Source: a virus. Taken from it: DNA of 28,714 nucleotides. The stretch lies in IMG/VR virus record IMGVR_UViG_3300017757_000097, positions 1-28,714 of that record; one strand, written 5' to 3'. This document shows positions 11,302 through 26,812 of the stretch, one piece after another. The position numbers and the translations under genes are program-made. The notes beneath the pieces are model-generated. The model worked only from the letters and a program-made list of their open reading frames with translations. It was not told where the DNA came from and did no database searches. How positions within the stretch are numbered: position 1 is the stretch's first letter; each line of letters opens with the position of its first letter.

Positions 11302-13216
11302 CAACCTCACCCCAGTTATCGCCAAGTTCATCGTCTACTTTAGAGGGGACTTTCAAGACATCCGACAACCCATTTTCCATTATGTGCTTGATGTTGTGAG
11401 CTTGGTCGTCACCCTCTACTGAAAAGCATAACTCATCATGCACTGTAAGCAAAGGAATAAGTCCCTCTTTGTAACAATCAGCCATAGCTTTTTTGGTCTG
11501 GTCGGCTGCTGAACCTTGAATCAATTTGTTCAATGCCTTGTAAGTAAACGCCCTTTTCAGGTTGTTTATGTTGCCATACTCCTTCTTAGCCTCTTCCAAA
11601 CGCATTGGCTTGTTGTACCCAAACGTCTTCGGCTCCCACAAATGAAACCTGCACTTGCGTCCGAGTAACGTGCGTATCTGACCTTGGTCCTCGGCTCTCT
11701 GGCTAGCGATACTGGCTAGCTGCTTAACAAACGGAACGTTTGTCCTGTGCTGCTCGATCAAGTGTTTAGCCTCTTCTTTAGAGATATCCAACTGTGCTGC
11801 TAGCTTGCCCACGCCCATGCCGTACATAATCCCAAGGTTTACCGTCTTGGCTTCCTTACGTTTGATGTTTGCCAGATCCGCCACCATTTGGTGTAGATCC
11901 ACATCTCCCTTGTGGTATTCTTCTACGATTGTATCGACCACCGGATGACGCATACTGTCTGGCATGCTTGCTGCAAAGTGTACCAACAACCTTGGCTCTT
12001 GGCTCGAGTAGTCAAACGACCCCCACTTCTGTCCCTCTTCAGGAATAAACAAGCCACGGATCATCCGCTTGATGTCGGGATCTCGCGCAGGAATTTGCTG
12101 TAAGTTTGGGTTGGACGATGAAAATCTCCCGGTCACAGTACCACCGTCATCGGATCGAAGCTGATGAAATTCTGTGTGTATCCGTCCGTTCTTCTCGTGC
12201 CGTAAGATCGAGTCAATAAACGTGCTGTCTGCCTTGTCGAACTCGCGGAGCTTCACAATCATCTGACATATTTCGTGCGGATGGTTGTTTAGATACTGCT
12301 TGGTAAACGACGGTGCCCCGGCCTCCGTGGTTGGGTATTCTAGGTTCAAAGCCTCGAAGACCTGTAGCACAGAGGACCCGGCCCATGGTTCTATCTCCAC
12401 GCCTGTCTTGCGCTTGATCTCCTTCTTTAGTTCTTTAACCTTGGCCCTTAGTTCCCCTCGAACAATGTCTGCTTTATCCAGATCGACACGCACACCACGC
12501 TCTCTCATGTCTACCATCAACGGAATTAAACTTGTTTCTAACTCGAAAATGTGGTTCAGGTCCTGTGACGATATCTCGATGCCAAGCCTCTCCCAGAGTT
12601 TGAGCGTCATGACAGCGTCTTGCTCTGCGTAAGCACCGACAAACTTTGGAGGCAGCTTCCACATGTCTGCTTTGGGGTCGATGCCCCAATCTTTGGCTGC
12701 TGCGCGGAGCATCCTCTCGTCCTTCCGCATATCGATGTAGTCACGCCCTAGGTTGTTTAGGCTGTAGGAAAACCTGTTCTCGTCCACCAGTGGGGCTGCA
12801 ACCATCGTATCGATAATCCTGCCCTCTACTTTTACCCCCTCTGCACGGAGCCATCCTGCGTCGTAGGTTGCATTGTGCATAACCTTATCGATGTGTGGAG
12901 TAGCCATTTGTTTCCTGAGCCACTTCATTGTCATCTTAGGATCTAAGTTGTGACCGTTCTGGTGGCGGATTGGGAAGTACCCCTGATAATCCCCGGCTGC
13001 TACAGCTATACCTACGATGTTACCGTCGCCTCTTGCCCATCCCGGGCCAAGCGTTTGGATGTTTGGATCCCGAGTCTCGAGATCTACAGCTATTGTCTTG
13101 TGCTGCGTTAGATCAGGAAACTCTGTGGGGATGTTCCAATCAGGATCCAGTGACTCCCCGAGCTCCATCCTTGCCAATAGGTCAACCGTCTTCTTATCTT
13201 TTCTGTCTCTTGCCAT
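11297..13216 (-). CDS. polA: DNA polymerase I (family A) with 3'-5' exonuclease
   Basis: This 639-residue replicative polymerase carries a DEDDy exonuclease domain at about 40-205 (D45-x-E47, D119 in NATYDAGW, Y196-x3-D200). The polymerase domain spans about 230-639. Motif A is FDYSSQEPRL with D402. Motif B is RKEAKTVNLGIMYG with R453, K457 and Y465. Motif C is VHDE with H593 and D594. All catalytic residues are present. The residue matching E. coli F762 is L461. The length fits phage PolA without a 5'-nuclease domain. It is the last gene of the replication operon and starts inside the end of the DUF6378-like gene. Confidence 0.96.
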   Translation of the reverse strand: MARDRKDKKTVDLLARMELGESLDPDWNIPTEFPDLTQHKTIAVDLETRDPNIQTLGPGWARGDGNIVGIAVAAGDYQGYFPIRHQNGHNLDPKMTMKWLRKQMATPHIDKVMHNATYDAGWLRAEGVKVEGRIIDTMVAAPLVDENRFSYSLNNLGRDYIDMRKDERMLRAAAKDWGIDPKADMWKLPPKFVGAYAEQDAVMTLKLWERLGIEISSQDLNHIFELETSLIPLMVDMRERGVRVDLDKADIVRGELRAKVKELKKEIKRKTGVEIEPWAGSSVLQVFEALNLEYPTTEAGAPSFTKQYLNNHPHEICQMIVKLREFDKADSTFIDSILRHEKNGRIHTEFHQLRSDDGGTVTGRFSSSNPNLQQIPARDPDIKRMIRGLFIPEEGQKWGSFDYSSQEPRLLVHFAASMPDSMRHPVVDTIVEEYHKGDVDLHQMVADLANIKRKEAKTVNLGIMYGMGVGKLAAQLDISKEEAKHLIEQHRTNVPFVKQLASIASQRAEDQGQIRTLLGRKCRFHLWEPKTFGYNKPMRLEEAKKEYGNINNLKRAFTYKALNKLIQGSAADQTKKAMADCYKEGLIPLLTVHDELCFSVEGDDQAHNIKHIMENGLSDVLKVPSKVDDELGDNWGEVG

Positions 13217-13674: not shown

Positions 13675-15200
13675 AACTTATACCTGTACCTGTTGTCTGT
13701 ATCCACGAGACACAAACGGTTTTTAGTTCTCGTCAAGCCAACGTACATGGCTCGATGCTCGTCATCAGGATACTTACTGTCCACACATGCCTTGGTCGAA
13801 CCCAAGAACACCGCACAGTTGTCATCCTCCCCTCCCTTCATTCCGTGGAATGTAGAAAGTTTAATCCGTGGATCTCCTGTTATATCTTCCCCACGTCTTT
13901 CCAATGCTTGGATGTATCGTTTCTCGCTGTCCCCGAACCTTGCCACATCCAAAGCATCACGATCAATAGCTGCTGTCATGCCAAAGTCCTTGACAAGCCT
14001 ATCGTAGGTCAGGAAACCTTCCGGGTCTGCTGCATCAAGCAGCCCTGCGGACCCACGCTTTACGACGGCCTTATCTCCTTGTTTCGGAACAAACTCATAC
14101 AAGGATCTGATCGAAGGTAGCTCAACACCTTCCCCGGCCTGTAGTCGTCTCCATATCTGCGCTGCTTCTGCTGCTTTTTGATTCACGCTGCTCTTGCCCT
14201 TTACCGCAAACAAATGTCCCTCGAGCCATAGCTGCGATGCCCACTCTCGAACAAACGAATTGGTTCGAGCCATCAGGGTCCACGATCCTTGGCTTAGATC
14301 GAGATCGTATGGATTTAGTGCCCAGTCAATCCGTCCCTCGTTATCTGTTGGGTTGAAAATCTTTTCTCTTCGCGTCGATATACGCTTCACAACTTTCTGT
14401 GACAGATCGTGAACCACCCTTGGCATGCGATAGCTTTGTGTAAGAACCCTGAAGTTATCTGATGCTCCCAGGAATCTTTTAACATCTACCCCTGTCCATC
14501 TGTGGATTGCCTGATCGTCATCCCCGGCAATCAATACACGCTTGGCATTCCTAGCAATCTCGAACACCATCTCCCATTGCAACGGTGTTAAATCCTGTGC
14601 CTCGTCAACAATAAACAGATCGAGGTGAGGCGGTTCTCCTATCTGTACATACTTTTCTATTAGATCTGCGAAATCAAATTTATTGGTGGCTGACTTATAT
14701 GCCTGTAGCTCTGCCTCTACCTTCCGTAGTTGAAAGAAATGCAGAGAGTGGTTGGCTACTTCATTGAACTCTTTCTCGATACTAATCATGCGATATCGAG
14801 CTCTGTTCTCCATCTGTAGATACACGTCTCCACTGTCCAAGGCTGTGGGTATCAACATACCATCGTCTGGGCTCACGGCACTCGCACCTCGAAACTTCAG
14901 GCCGAGCTCTCGAGATAATACGTCCCAATCCTCCGGGCCTAGCATATCTCCAGTGCCTAATCCAAGTCCATTGAAGGCCCAAGAGTGCAGCGTCCTGAAC
15001 CATGGCAGATCTTTTCGATCTACATTGAACTTAATACAGGCTCGAGACACGGCTTCTTGAATAGCTTTCCGTGTAAACGAAACATAACCAATACGGTCAG
15101 GCGGTGTGCCGAGGCGCATAGCTTCCTCGATCTCCTCCATCAACGTGTAGGTTTTTCCGCAGCCCGGGGGACCAAAGATAATTTCAGCGTTGGGTATCAT
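13671..15200 (-). CDS. UvrD/PcrA-like superfamily 1 DNA helicase
   Basis: This is a 509-residue ATP-dependent helicase. The motifs run in order: Walker A GPPGCGKT (10-17), Ia-like YVSFTRKA (39-46), Walker B IVDEAQD (197-203), motif III AGDDDQAIHRW (225-235), motif IV LTQSYRMP (253-260), then LSTFHGMKGGEDDN and YVGLTRTKNRL near the C-terminus. It is shorter than cellular UvrD (about 720), mainly because the 1B/2B subdomains are reduced. This is usual in phages. It probably unwinds DNA for replication or recombination. It overlaps the HTH gene upstream and the zinc gene downstream by four bases each. Confidence 0.93.
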   Translation of the reverse strand: MIPNAEIIFGPPGCGKTYTLMEEIEEAMRLGTPPDRIGYVSFTRKAIQEAVSRACIKFNVDRKDLPWFRTLHSWAFNGLGLGTGDMLGPEDWDVLSRELGLKFRGASAVSPDDGMLIPTALDSGDVYLQMENRARYRMISIEKEFNEVANHSLHFFQLRKVEAELQAYKSATNKFDFADLIEKYVQIGEPPHLDLFIVDEAQDLTPLQWEMVFEIARNAKRVLIAGDDDQAIHRWTGVDVKRFLGASDNFRVLTQSYRMPRVVHDLSQKVVKRISTRREKIFNPTDNEGRIDWALNPYDLDLSQGSWTLMARTNSFVREWASQLWLEGHLFAVKGKSSVNQKAAEAAQIWRRLQAGEGVELPSIRSLYEFVPKQGDKAVVKRGSAGLLDAADPEGFLTYDRLVKDFGMTAAIDRDALDVARFGDSEKRYIQALERRGEDITGDPRIKLSTFHGMKGGEDDNCAVFLGSTKACVDSKYPDDEHRAMYVGLTRTKNRLCLVDTDNRYRYKL

Positions 15201-15406
15201 TCCTGTACCCCTCGAGGTCTGCTGTCTAACCAGTCAATAACCTCGTCTTCTTTCCAACGGCTTGCGCTGCGCTTGCCGTCATCCTGTCCAAGAACGACAG
15301 GCTCGGGAAACTCTCCCTCGTGTACCCATTTATAAATGGTTGATCTCGAGACGTTCAGCCACTCTGAAACCTCTCCGACCTTTAAGAGCTTAGAACGGGA
15401 CTTCAT
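15197..15406 (-). CDS. AlpA/excisionase-type helix-turn-helix protein
   Basis: This is a 69-residue protein. Residues 8-40 read LKVGEVSEWLNVSRSTIYKW followed by a GEFPEPV wing and a basic segment ending in EDEVIDWLDSR. This is the MerR-like HTH typical of AlpA regulators and phage excisionases. It would bind DNA as a small winged HTH. It lies between primase and helicase, overlapping the former by 17 bases and the latter by four (ATGA). No integrase gene is visible in the window. A regulatory or origin-binding role is as likely as excision. Confidence 0.85.
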   Translation of the reverse strand: MKSRSKLLKVGEVSEWLNVSRSTIYKWVHEGEFPEPVVLGQDDGKRSASRWKEDEVIDWLDSRPRGVQE

Positions 15407-16922
15407 ACTTATCCTCCTTTACGTCAATCTCTATGTCAGCGTCATCAAATGCAGGAACCCACCACACACGAATCGACGTATGCTTACCGTCCTCGCGTTT
15501 GATATTCCGTGTGCCATGGCACTCCTCGTTATGATTCATTTGTTTAAGTTGATCCTGAACCTGTGCCCTCGTGTATTGTGTAAAGCTTCGGTTCTTCAGA
15601 TATTCCATGAGAGCCTCGATACGGAACTTAGTCAGCCCCTTCTCGGTCCATGGTTTTCCAAGCTCCATCTCCTCTGGAGACATAGCTCGAATACGGCTTG
15701 TACAAAAATTTCTCAGGTGCTCACGGAACTGACCAGAGTATGTGAGTTCCTCCGAGACCGGGATTTTTGTAGCTGTCTGCATCATTCCGTTGATTGTTTT
15801 CTGCCATACCGATGGCTTCGGTACTGGTGGCATTGTGTCTAACTGCTCCATACACGCACGTTGAAACAGCGTTGGATGTTGTAGTTGATCTGTTGATAGG
15901 ACCAACCGACCACCATCGACGGTCATAAAATATAATCGAGGCTCCGACTGCATGATAGTAAGTCCATCTATTTTGGCTGCATCAGGAGCGTCCTCTCCTA
16001 TGCCATACTTTCTGGTACGACAGATGTCTTTGTTGCAGTGGTCCTTCAGTGGACACACATCACACTGGTAGAAATATTCTTTGCGCTCCAGAGATTTCTG
16101 TAGCTGCATAACCTCCGAGGCCGGGAGGGGTGGCTCACATAAGATACGATTGTATTCTTCGTGGTGAGACTTCCAATCGTCTGACCACTTCATCCGACAG
16201 TATACGCCCACCGCAAACATAAAAATGTTTCTGTTTTCTGTGACCTTGCCCAAGCTCGAGATCAACTCCAAGCAATACGCCCCATCACTGAAGTGTATGC
16301 GCTCTCCACCGAAGTTCATCTCTGTCAACTCGGACATCGATACTCTGGTTTTCTCTGCTGCTTTTAAAAACTGATCCAATGTCATTGCTTCACACTTCGT
16401 ATTGAAACAATACCGCATGGTTTCTTCTGCATTGTAATACGGTAGGTTGATAAAGTTTCCTAGATCTCCCCGGTCCTCGATAATCGTATCCTGTTTTGGA
16501 AACACCTCACAACCAGAGTGCCCTATGGCTGACGCCATCTCGGACAATAACTCACGGACCAGTGCCGCAGGTTCCCAGTGTTTCAAGAATAAAAATAAAT
16601 GTGCACCGCCCGACTTCGATCTGCAATGGAGAAGGGGCAGCTTTAAATCCTGTATCTTTTTGTTCAGCGTCTTGTGATCGAGATCATAGATGTCGATATC
16701 CAAAGCACCAAACTTACACACATCACCAGAACGGATCGGTATCGAACCAATCCCTTGTTCGCCATCGATGTGGCCCTGTAGTTTTTCTGCTGTCAACGTT
16801 TCTCGAATCACGAAACTTTTGGCATCTGCCTTGCCGTTTCTACCAATGCGCCCCACGTTCGTGGCACCGTGGCCTTTCTGTGATCCTTCGAAGACCGCCA
16901 ACAATTGTTCTGCTGCTGACAT
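15390..16922 (-). CDS. Archaeo-eukaryotic-type primase (TOTE-like AEP)
   Basis: The protein has 510 residues. The N-terminal half has the AEP fold signature: GALDIDIYD with D75 and D77, then CRSKSGGAHLFLFL (100-113) with the S-G-G-x-H element, and CEVFPKQ (138-144). This resembles the primases of TOTE conflict systems and of many marine phages. A Cys cluster follows (C287, C290, C296, C301), likely metal binding. The C-terminal region is helical and ends EDKYEVPF, which resembles an SSB tail. It would make primers for the PolA of the same operon. The start is preceded by AGGAGT. Specific substrate preference is unknown. Confidence 0.85.
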   Translation of the reverse strand: MSAAEQLLAVFEGSQKGHGATNVGRIGRNGKADAKSFVIRETLTAEKLQGHIDGEQGIGSIPIRSGDVCKFGALDIDIYDLDHKTLNKKIQDLKLPLLHCRSKSGGAHLFLFLKHWEPAALVRELLSEMASAIGHSGCEVFPKQDTIIEDRGDLGNFINLPYYNAEETMRYCFNTKCEAMTLDQFLKAAEKTRVSMSELTEMNFGGERIHFSDGAYCLELISSLGKVTENRNIFMFAVGVYCRMKWSDDWKSHHEEYNRILCEPPLPASEVMQLQKSLERKEYFYQCDVCPLKDHCNKDICRTRKYGIGEDAPDAAKIDGLTIMQSEPRLYFMTVDGGRLVLSTDQLQHPTLFQRACMEQLDTMPPVPKPSVWQKTINGMMQTATKIPVSEELTYSGQFREHLRNFCTSRIRAMSPEEMELGKPWTEKGLTKFRIEALMEYLKNRSFTQYTRAQVQDQLKQMNHNEECHGTRNIKREDGKHTSIRVWWVPAFDDADIEIDVKEDKYEVPF

Positions 16923-20190: not shown

Positions 20191-20399
20191 AGACTCTCTA
20201 TTTCTTTCAGCAAACGATCAACTTGCTTTTGAAGAGCCTTAATTTTTCTTGAGTTGTCTGGTTTTTTGATGACAGGTGGGGCAGATCTCGTAGTCGTATC
20301 CGCTCCACCCGATACCCCCCACTTTTTCCGGGCTGCGGCGTTCTCTTTCACCGCTGACTGTTCCATCAAACGCTTTAACAGATTCTCTCGGTCCACCAC
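20184..20399 (-). CDS. Coiled-coil C-terminal reading frame, possible frameshift partner of the HTH gene
   Basis: From a GTG at 20399, preceded by GGAAGG, the frame encodes about 71 residues. They are an Ala/Lys-rich start (RENLLKRLMEQSAVKENAAA), a Ser/Thr/Pro linker, and a clear coiled coil at the end (KIKALQKQVDRLLKEIESLK). The frame is also open a little upstream to a TTG at 20417. It overlaps the HTH frame by 161 bases in the +1 register. Its composition looks protein-like, more so than the tail of the HTH frame. It may be a separate overlapping gene, or the natural C-terminus of the HTH protein reached by frameshift. Confidence 0.5.
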   Translation of the reverse strand: MVDRENLLKRLMEQSAVKENAAARKKWGVSGGADTTTRSAPPVIKKPDNSRKIKALQKQVDRLLKEIESLK

Positions 20400-20553
20400 G
20401 TTTATCCTTCCTAACAAAAACTAATTGGTGACGCTTGGCAGTATCGTATACAGCTTGCGAAGAAACACCTAAATGTTTTGCTGTCTCCGCAAGCGTGTAT
20501 CCTTCACTGGCACACTTCTTGTAATCTTTAACTGTGTACTTCCATTGCCTCAT
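20239..20553 (-). CDS. Helix-turn-helix protein (104 aa as read)
   Basis: Residues 1-50 contain a clear HTH (YTLAETAKHLGVSSQAVYDT with flanking basic residues), of the kind used by small phage regulators or terminase-like DNA binders. After about residue 50 the composition becomes Arg/Gly-rich, then CPTCHQKTRQLKKN. This part may be out-of-frame reading, because the +1 frame from 20417 looks more like protein. If so, the true product is HTH plus coiled coil. The start overlaps the upstream OB-fold gene by 26 bases. The HTH itself is a confident call; the C-terminus is not. Confidence 0.65.
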   Translation of the reverse strand: MRQWKYTVKDYKKCASEGYTLAETAKHLGVSSQAVYDTAKRHQLVFVRKDKRGGPRESVKAFDGTVSGERERRSPEKVGGIGWSGYDYEICPTCHQKTRQLKKN

Positions 20554-25514: not shown

Positions 25515-25908
25515 TTTTTAAATGCTCCTCTTGCGTTTTATATAGATGGGGACTTGTCAAAGGTTTGTCAAGTTGATTTGATAAAATAAATAAAAAAACT
25601 TTCTATATAATACTTTTTGACCCCCCCTTACATAAAAAAAAGTTTTTGAAAAACGTGTGAAAAGCGTATTAAACGTATTACAGATCGATAAAGTATTTAT
25701 ATACAGAGAGTTAACCCCCAACTCTCATCCGTATTACGAGCGTATTATAATACGTTACAGGTGTATTAGATCTTCTAATATGCCCTGAGTCGATTTTCGG
25801 AATTGGTTTTTTTCTGGTGTTGGGTGTAAAAATCGTAATATAACAAGTCAGAATAATACGGTACTAATACGGTACTAATACGGTAAATAACATTAGGAGA
25901 CTAATGCG
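25515..25908. promoter_or_regulatory. AT-rich divergent control region (early promoter, possible origin or pac site)
   Basis: These 394 bases contain no gene. For the minus strand, TATATAA (25538-25544) and two TTGACA boxes (25555-25560, 25566-25571) lie upstream of the early block, but their spacing (10 and 21 bases) is not ideal. A/T tracts fill 25570-25660. From 25665 to 25911 there are many CGTATTA/TAATACG sites. A 7-bp hairpin (GAGAGTT/AACTCTC) lies at 25706-25726. The region separates early genes from terS. It could hold promoters, an origin or the packaging site. Confidence 0.6.
25665..25754. repeat. CGTATTA cluster with a 14-bp palindrome
   Basis: CGTATTA occurs at 25665, 25674, 25730 and 25741. 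Its complement TAATACG occurs at 25748. The last two form the perfect palindrome CGTATTATAATACG (25741-25754). The density of a 7-mer in both orientations suggests a protein-binding array. Confidence 0.8.
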
Positions 25909-25911
25909 GTG
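25854..25911 (+). repeat. Three 11-bp iterons (TAATACGGTAC) plus a degenerate fourth
   Basis: TAATACGGT starts at 25854, 25865 and 25876, an exact 11-bp period close to one helical turn. A degenerate copy, ACTAATGCGGT (25900-25910), overlaps the GTG start codon of terS. The phased spacing implies cooperative binding by one protein on one DNA face. Confidence 0.85.
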
Positions 25912-26475
25912 ACAAAAAAAGATATAGAAGAAAAGCACGAAAGAAAGCTTACCAATAGACAGCTAACTTTTGCAAGGCACATAGTCGAGGGCATCTATTC
26001 GAATGCTGAAAGTGCGAGGCAAGCAGGGTACTCACCAGAACTGGCAAACGAAAGAGCATCTGTTTTGTTGAATGGTCGAGACTATCCACATGTTGTCGAT
26101 CACATCAAAGAGCTTCGAGAAGAGCGAGAACGAAGGTATGGGGTGACCACAATTGGTCAACTCGAGCGACTGCATCAATTGTCTCGAGGAGCCGAGGATG
26201 CAGGGCATTTTTCAGCAGCCATCAACGCAGAGAAAATAAGATCTGCCTTGGGTGGTTTGACCATCGATAGGCGCGAGAACATTAACACCGTTGACCAGAT
26301 GACCAGAGACCAGATTGTGGCGCGGCTCGATGCACTTAGAAAACAATACCCACAGGTTTTTGAAATTGAGACAGAATACAAGGATATTACACCAAATGAG
26401 CAAGGGACCAGAAGCGAACTTTTGGAACACGATAAGGCAGAACTTGCCGAAGAAGTGCTTCGCAACGAGGATTGA
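25909..26475 (+). CDS. terS: Terminase small subunit (TerS)
   Basis: The 188-residue protein starts with GTG at 25909 and AGGAG upstream. Residues about 14-56 (LTNRQLTFARHIVEGIYSNA, then ESARQAGYSPELANERASVL) are the N-terminal HTH of the terminase small subunit family, which recognises packaging sites. The middle is helical and suits oligomerisation. The C-terminus is acidic and would contact the large subunit. The large subunit gene is not in this window. The iterons directly upstream, one overlapping the start, could be its target. The last 80 bases overlap the nuclease gene. Confidence 0.85.
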   Translation: MTKKDIEEKHERKLTNRQLTFARHIVEGIYSNAESARQAGYSPELANERASVLLNGRDYPHVVDHIKELREERERRYGVTTIGQLERLHQLSRGAEDAGHFSAAINAEKIRSALGGLTIDRRENINTVDQMTRDQIVARLDALRKQYPQVFEIETEYKDITPNEQGTRSELLEHDKAELAEEVLRNED

Positions 26476-26812
26476 AAACAAACATGGGGGCGGTGTTCCT
26501 GATGTTCACATGGTTTGGGACCACATACCTTTATGGCTCGAACTTAAAACAGTGAAAAACAACGCAATTAAAATTTCTGCCCATCAGATAGCGTGGCATA
26601 TGGCGTATTACGCTCGAGGCGGTGCATCCTTTTTCTTGGTCAAGCACCTCCCGACAAGGCATCTATATTTGTTTGAAGGGTGCCAAGGACCTGATTTGCT
26701 ATCTAAAGGTTTAAGCAGCACCGTGGGCCAACGGTTCGAGGACATAGGTTCGATGTTCGATGCCCTGCGGCCCCACGCGGCTGATATATTATCGGGCTCG
26801 AGGGACCAATGA
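26396..26812 (+). CDS. PD-(D/E)XK nuclease, VRR-NUC / resolvase-like (138 aa)
   Basis: I chose the ATG at 26396, with AAGGAT about 11 bases upstream; longer starts at 26315 or 26330 lie far inside terS. Residues 23-52 read ATRIENKHGGGVPDVHMVW then LWLELK, giving E27, D36 and E49-x-K51, the PD-(D/E)XK set. HQ at 63-64 follows, as in VRR-NUC-type enzymes. It may resolve branched DNA before packaging. The C-terminal part is variable, and its LRPHAAD is read from a copy of the dispersed 12-mer. The overlap with terS is 80 bases. Confidence 0.83.
   Translation: MSKGPEANFWNTIRQNLPKKCFATRIENKHGGGVPDVHMVWDHIPLWLELKTVKNNAIKISAHQIAWHMAYYARGGASFFLVKHLPTRHLYLFEGCQGPDLLSKGLSSTVGQRFEDIGSMFDALRPHAADILSGSRDQ
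26766..26777. repeat. Dispersed 12-mer TGCGGCCCCACG, copy 3
   Basis: Exact copy within the C-terminal codons of the nuclease, read as L-R-P-H-A on the plus strand. It is followed by CGG as in copy 4. Confidence 0.8.

Follow-up and report, generated by a model that had tools for sequence, protein, structure and literature searches.

A phased iteron array beside terS is a probable replication origin read by the phage's own primase

The DNA analysed here is a 28,714 bp fragment of an IMG/VR virus record (the window), for which a megablast against named phages gave no match. Between the leftward genes on one side and the rightward terS on the other lies an array of the word CGTATTA, which occurs 11 times in the window against an expectation of 2.22 (sd 1.45), a count reached by 0 of 100 shuffles. 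Eight exact copies fall inside 218 bp, in agreement with an earlier note on this DNA, which had reported at least eight copies of the word or its complement in about 220 bases; the 14-bp palindrome and the flanking AT-rich tracts that it described are also there (Table 1), the window's lowest-GC 120 nt (23%) being 25581-25700. Copies start at 25665, 25674, 25730 and 25741 on the plus strand and at 25748, 25854, 25865 and 25876 on the minus strand, every left-hand copy pointing rightward and every right-hand copy leftward. The start-to-start distances are 9, 56, 11, 7, 106, 11 and 11 bp; spacing within clusters is thus about one helical turn, the phased short repeats of an iteron origin. Three exact 11-bp repeats had also been claimed, and two are indeed identical (TAATACGGTAC at 25854 and 25865), but the third differs (TAATACGGTAA). 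The number of units in this right-hand tandem varies, with three in the window vs two in the near-identical relative L001. Over the terS start, TAATGCGGTGA had been taken for a fourth copy, but L010, which diverges most among the close relatives, has TGATGCAGATG there and retains no such site, and this copy was left uncounted; the autoregulation proposed from this overlap falls with it, since the overlap is not conserved. A further half-site, CGTAATA, lies near 25834. The array region also contains the element ATGCCCTGA at 25780-25788, and 9 of 30 dereplicated relatives have ATGCCCT somewhere in this region, at varying positions, where shuffling predicts 0.4. The single-strand folding z of the array region is -2.8; the folds include the inverted iterons as well as small hairpins that L010 has not retained. 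Directly after terS, a small ORF (26480-26812) matches PHROG 2165, annotated as DNA helicase, at 41 bits; on visual inspection, it resembles a fragment of a VRR-NUC-type nuclease.

Table 1. Positions of the array, its parts and the genes discussed in the text (window coordinates; a dot marks features without strand)
Feature	Position	Strand	Basis or remark
Iteron array, eight exact CGTATTA in inverted halves; proposed origin core	25665..25882	.	Word counts; same place in relatives
Left iteron pair, 9 bp spacing	25665..25680	+	Adjoins A/T tract
Central iterons, including palindrome CGTATTATAATACG at 25741-25754	25730..25754	.	
Weaker half-site GTGTATTA	25761..25768	+	Invariant in nine close relatives
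ATGCCCTGA element within array region	25780..25788	+	
Right tandem, three 11-bp iterons	25854..25886	-	
AT-rich tract, candidate DNA-unwinding element	25560..25664	.	Base composition
terS (Terminase_2, PF03592)	25909..26475	+	Adjoins array
AEP primase (PF22548 AEP-TOTE), 510 aa; proposed origin-binding initiator	15390..16922	-	
Predicted winged-helix part of primase C-terminus, residues 430-490	15453..15635	-	AlphaFold2 models
Codons of primase residues 471-473	15504..15512	-	471 tracks base 2, 473 base 3
Codon of primase residue 483	15474..15476	-	Loosely tracks base 1; weak
AlpA-like HTH protein, encoded between the primase and the UvrD-like helicase	15197..15406	-	

The earlier note had proposed a comparison of the array among related phages. 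Starting from 80 TerS relatives from IMG/VR, to which further contigs were added later, we found at least six copies of one GTnnnn word at the same place in 153 of 161 terS-upstream regions, vs 0 of 478 control segments. Within the words, 48 of 56 columns are invariant across nine close relatives, compared to 95 of 199 outside them (Fisher p = 2e-7). The word itself differs by lineage, at constant position and with similar spacing. GTATTA is found in the window and its nearest kin, GTATGC in L011-L016, GTCATC in L013/L018, GTAATC in L021-L034, GTAAAT in L035, GTAAAC in many relatives, GTCTTC in L048/L056, GTCCTC in L157 and L297, GTACTC in L300/L303 and L446, GTAATA in L284 and L420, GTTCTC in L471 and GTCCCC in L403. 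Given that the place is conserved while the word changes, this is the pattern expected of a binding site that coevolves with its reader. Two terS-upstream arrays are mixed: L162 combines GTACTC, GTAATC and GTCCTC, and L209 has GTAAAC on the left and GTAATC on the right. Judged by their words, it is as if these arrays stood at the mid-point of a specificity switch.

A search for the reader was made by ranking every variable column in a set of ten proteins (primase, DNA polymerase, UvrD-like and SNF2-like helicases, TerS, AlpA-like, gp34-like, 186-aa, 197-aa and 230-aa proteins) against the word, in 20 and then 28 contigs holding both array and primase. In the set of 28, with 1,792 such columns, primase residue 471 ranks first for word base 2, where A is accompanied by 15 H, 1 I and 1 R, C by 5 K and 3 R, and T by 3 T. 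Residue 473 ranks first for base 3 when this is scored as A vs not A, a recasting made after the blind test described below, so that this ranking is not itself blind; A goes with 4 A, 4 S and 1 K, and not A with 18 N and 1 Y, with no overlap. The divergent lineage L158 has I at 471 and K at 473. For base 1, residue 483 ranks fifth, and we regard this rule as weak. The pattern can be read directly in the motif CHGHK-x-I at the primase C-terminus, which carries N in phages with the word GTAATC, and S or A in those with GTAAAC or GTAAAT. It is also seen in two sister contigs, G007 and G008, which are 97-99% identical in most replication genes and have GTAATC vs GTAAAT words and N473 vs A473. The two differ mostly at the end of the primase and within the UvrD-like helicase; in the AlpA-like protein that lies in between, there is one change. 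The UvrD-like helicase was rejected as a reader: its differences between the sisters run along its whole length, and for neither base 2 nor base 3 does any of its columns outrank the primase.

The columns had been picked after inspection, and predictions were therefore written down ahead of obtaining further contigs. Base 2 was called correctly in 4 of 4 contigs with an already observed residue, and base 1, through residue 483, in 4 of 6. The blind cases are few, and the frequent states, A at base 2 and A at base 1, would often be guessed correctly in any event. Base 3 is the informative test, its two states being near balance, and it was right in 6 of 7 cases, the miss being L403, with C where T was predicted. 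A rule by which R471 would specify G was refuted in the blind contigs; R occurs with C three times and with A once. When the tree is made from primase residues 1-430 alone, word and residue changes share the same paths, with six or more changes at base 3. Independent pairs of word and residue changes number 4-5 for base 3, 3 for base 2 and 2-3 for base 1, with none discordant; per base, these are too few for significance alone. Scanning further genome contigs gave primases 29-60% identical over the matched part, and no array usable for pairing. A DNA-binding protein encoded outside the window, that is, in half of the genome, could covary too.

The primase is encoded 9 kb from the array. Its AlphaFold2 model (mean pLDDT 85, pTM 0.57) has an AEP domain that matches the CAPP PrimPol 7nqd (E 3e-10), and also RepB' (3h20) and the S-2L PrimPol, and there is a Zn-finger-like CxxC...C...C at residues 287-301 (C287-C301). 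We looked in the primase for the P-loop motif GxxxxGK[ST] and found none, and a structure search with the model gave no significant helicase match. The C-terminus is modelled as H-B-H-H-B-B, the order of a winged helix, with predicted elements B1 (430-433), H2 (435-444), H3 (452-462), B2 (469-475) and B3 (481-490). Modelled separately, the last 126 residues show the same element order; compared with the PDB, this second model gave no significant fold match (best E 0.2). Judged by the element order in the models, the C-terminus is therefore a predicted winged helix, in which residues 471 and 473 would lie on the first wing strand, B2, and residue 483 on the second, B3.

The earlier note had left three options for the array: a packaging site bound by TerS, a replication origin or an operator. 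The origin is favoured here, given that the word covaries with the primase, in its predicted C-terminal winged helix, and not with TerS. We consider it likely that the array is the replication origin and that the phage's own AEP primase binds the CGTATTA iterons through this predicted domain, and the two appear, from their sequences, to have evolved as lock and key. Recognition of a duplex array by a primase points to an origin, as this would be its one obvious use. The AT-rich element that adjoins the iterons is, at the level of sequence, what is expected of an origin, and A/T tracts of at least 12 nt accompany 19 of 29 dereplicated arrays vs 0 of 120 controls. The cumulative GC skew of the window has its minimum at 25730, and when genes of equal coding strand are compared, GC skew is higher on the terS side in 7 of 7 contigs, which are related to each other and differ in gene content. 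The switch of GC skew at the array agrees with a replication start there, as supportive evidence only.

What the sequences show is a conserved array, a word that switches and its covariation with primase residues 471 and 473. From this we infer direct binding, origin activity, melting and priming, as well as a selective reason for the switching, and initiation could be pictured as follows. Several primases would sit side by side on the phased iterons, and the AT-rich tract beside the bound iterons would melt. The bound primase, together with the neighbouring helicases, would then provide the DNA polymerase of the phage with its first primers, and forks would leave both ways from between the leftward replication genes and the rightward terS. 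Lineages keep the layout but have repeatedly switched the inner letters of the iterons jointly with the predicted wing residues of the primase, which would give each a private initiator-origin pair.

A comparable arrangement is found in isolated phages. Siphophages with a related primase (DMU1, Bhz9, PMBT28, K21lambda1 and Kokobel2) have similar arrays just upstream of the primase gene. Iterons immediately upstream of an initiator gene are a classic arrangement, and these arrays therefore support the origin. The array word differs between these phages along with the primase C-terminal motif: GCAACCG and GHGAL in DMU1, GGAACC and GHGSI in Bhz9, TGGAACG and EHTKL in PMBT28 and K21lambda1, and TGGAACC and DHTKL in Kokobel2. 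Two arrays each are present in the Acinetobacter phage DMU1 (L360; 20894-21064 and 43113-43344) and in PMBT28 (L359; 20886-20984 and 43644-43873). In both, one array is directly upstream of the primase gene; the second array of DMU1 is upstream of terS.

Among the alternatives, the one that survives best, though we consider it unlikely, is that the words are templates for primer starts, read by the primase on single-stranded DNA rather than as double-stranded iterons, a mode reported for some PrimPols. The reader would after all be a primase, and NrS-1 PrimPol is reportedly sequence-specific on a template word. RepB' of RSF1010 is sequence-specific on exposed stem-loops (PMC4234260). However, the covarying residues belong to the C-terminal domain, which is distant in sequence from the catalytic AEP part, and words in both orientations with 9-11 bp phasing suit duplex binding.

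Slightly less probable still is that the array is an operator through which a phage regulator controls divergent early and late blocks, with no role in initiation. The array does divide the leftward genes from the rightward terS, its paired and inverted sites fit a repressor, and the window encodes three small HTH proteins. Yet the word does not follow the recognition helix of the AlpA-like protein, which is identical across contigs with different words, and no column of this protein is top-ranking, whereas the protein that does covary is the primase. Another HTH gene (104 aa, 20239-20553) could be found in the records of just 2 relatives out of 18. Moreover, a search covering terminators and, among promoters, those of the sigma-70 type only found none within the array. 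A secondary role as an operator may stand, as the array separates divergent genes.

Finally, a packaging (pac) site bound by TerS, which would fit the position of the array directly upstream of a terS of the Terminase_2 family, as pac sites lie there in some phages, is probably not what the array is, and we give this very little credence, given that one TerS N-terminal sequence accompanies GTAATC, GTAAAC and GTAAAT arrays (L023, L027, L034 and L035), that no TerS column is among the best 7 for base 2 in the 28-contig ranking and the best one for base 3 explains 36% vs 100% for primase 473, so that specificity does not follow TerS, and that DMU1 and PMBT28 each have one of their two arrays beside the primase gene, far from terS.

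With the array as a probable origin and the primase as its probable reader, a candidate origin and initiator are at hand for a common, mostly uncultured phage group, and likewise for the isolated Acinetobacter and enterobacterial siphophages. In the open-access literature, we found no description of an origin or repeats for this phage group, or of an origin or initiator for these siphophages. It is an open question in what way initiator-origin pairs escape a lethal mismatch when their specificity changes. Natural material comes in the form of at least ten word classes with their cognate primases, near-identical sister phages and mixed intermediate arrays. Because the sisters differ little in words and wing residues and intermediates exist, the question becomes testable with natural sequences. 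A wider proposal, which we hold only tentatively and at somewhat less than even chances, is that in a large marine phage family the C-terminal wing of the primase reads the iterons by a nearly one-residue-per-base code, in which residue 471 would specify base 2 and residue 473 base 3. Specificity would be switched base by base through mixed arrays like those of L162 and L209, resulting in private replication-compatibility groups. Such groups may allow phages in a co-infection to keep clear of one another's initiators, or to get away from attackers that target the origin, much as PLE satellites do from Odn.

Of cultured phages, the pelagiphages of the HTVC023P type are isolates with related primase, helicase, DNA polymerase and TerS, although the TerS identity is only 30-37%. 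HTVC023P itself (L361, Pelagibacter phage) has five copies of TAGGAAA on one strand at 11681-11771, upstream of terS. The main text of a survey of these pelagiphages contains neither 'origin of replication' nor 'terminase small' (PMC9599517). Among characterized systems, the alpha protein of P4 is a phage primase whose winged-helix domain binds short origin repeats (PMC4234260). The likeness lies in a primase with a predicted winged-helix domain and in short origin repeats, with binding in our case suggested by covariation. In contrast, P4 alpha is a Toprim-type primase that also unwinds DNA, whereas the primase described here is of the AEP type, shows no P-loop motif and has its helicases in separate genes; with no helicase domain found in the same protein, we do not class it as a P4 alpha member. 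ORF904 of pRN1 is an AEP primase with a C-terminal winged helix that acts at the origin (PMC4234260), but there a SF3 helicase is fused and the origin is a stem-loop without iterons. RSF1010 also has an AEP primase at an iteron origin, and its RepB' (3h20) is a structural match of our model. Unlike what we propose, it is a separate protein, RepC, that binds the iterons, and RepB' reads stem-loops (PMC4234260). A precedent for covariation is the V. cholerae PLE, in which the DNA-binding domain of RepA and the ori iterons covary and are exchanged together; the phage nuclease Odn is considered the likely selective force behind this switch of initiator and origin (PMC8263062). As with primase and words here, initiator and iterons covary between relatives. 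PLE, however, is a satellite with a RepA_N initiator, semi-palindromic iterons of ~30 bp and two groups, compared to a primase, words of 7-8 bp and at least ten classes differing by single bases in the phage group of the window. The present case would combine an AEP primase, a predicted winged helix and iterons, without a fused helicase.
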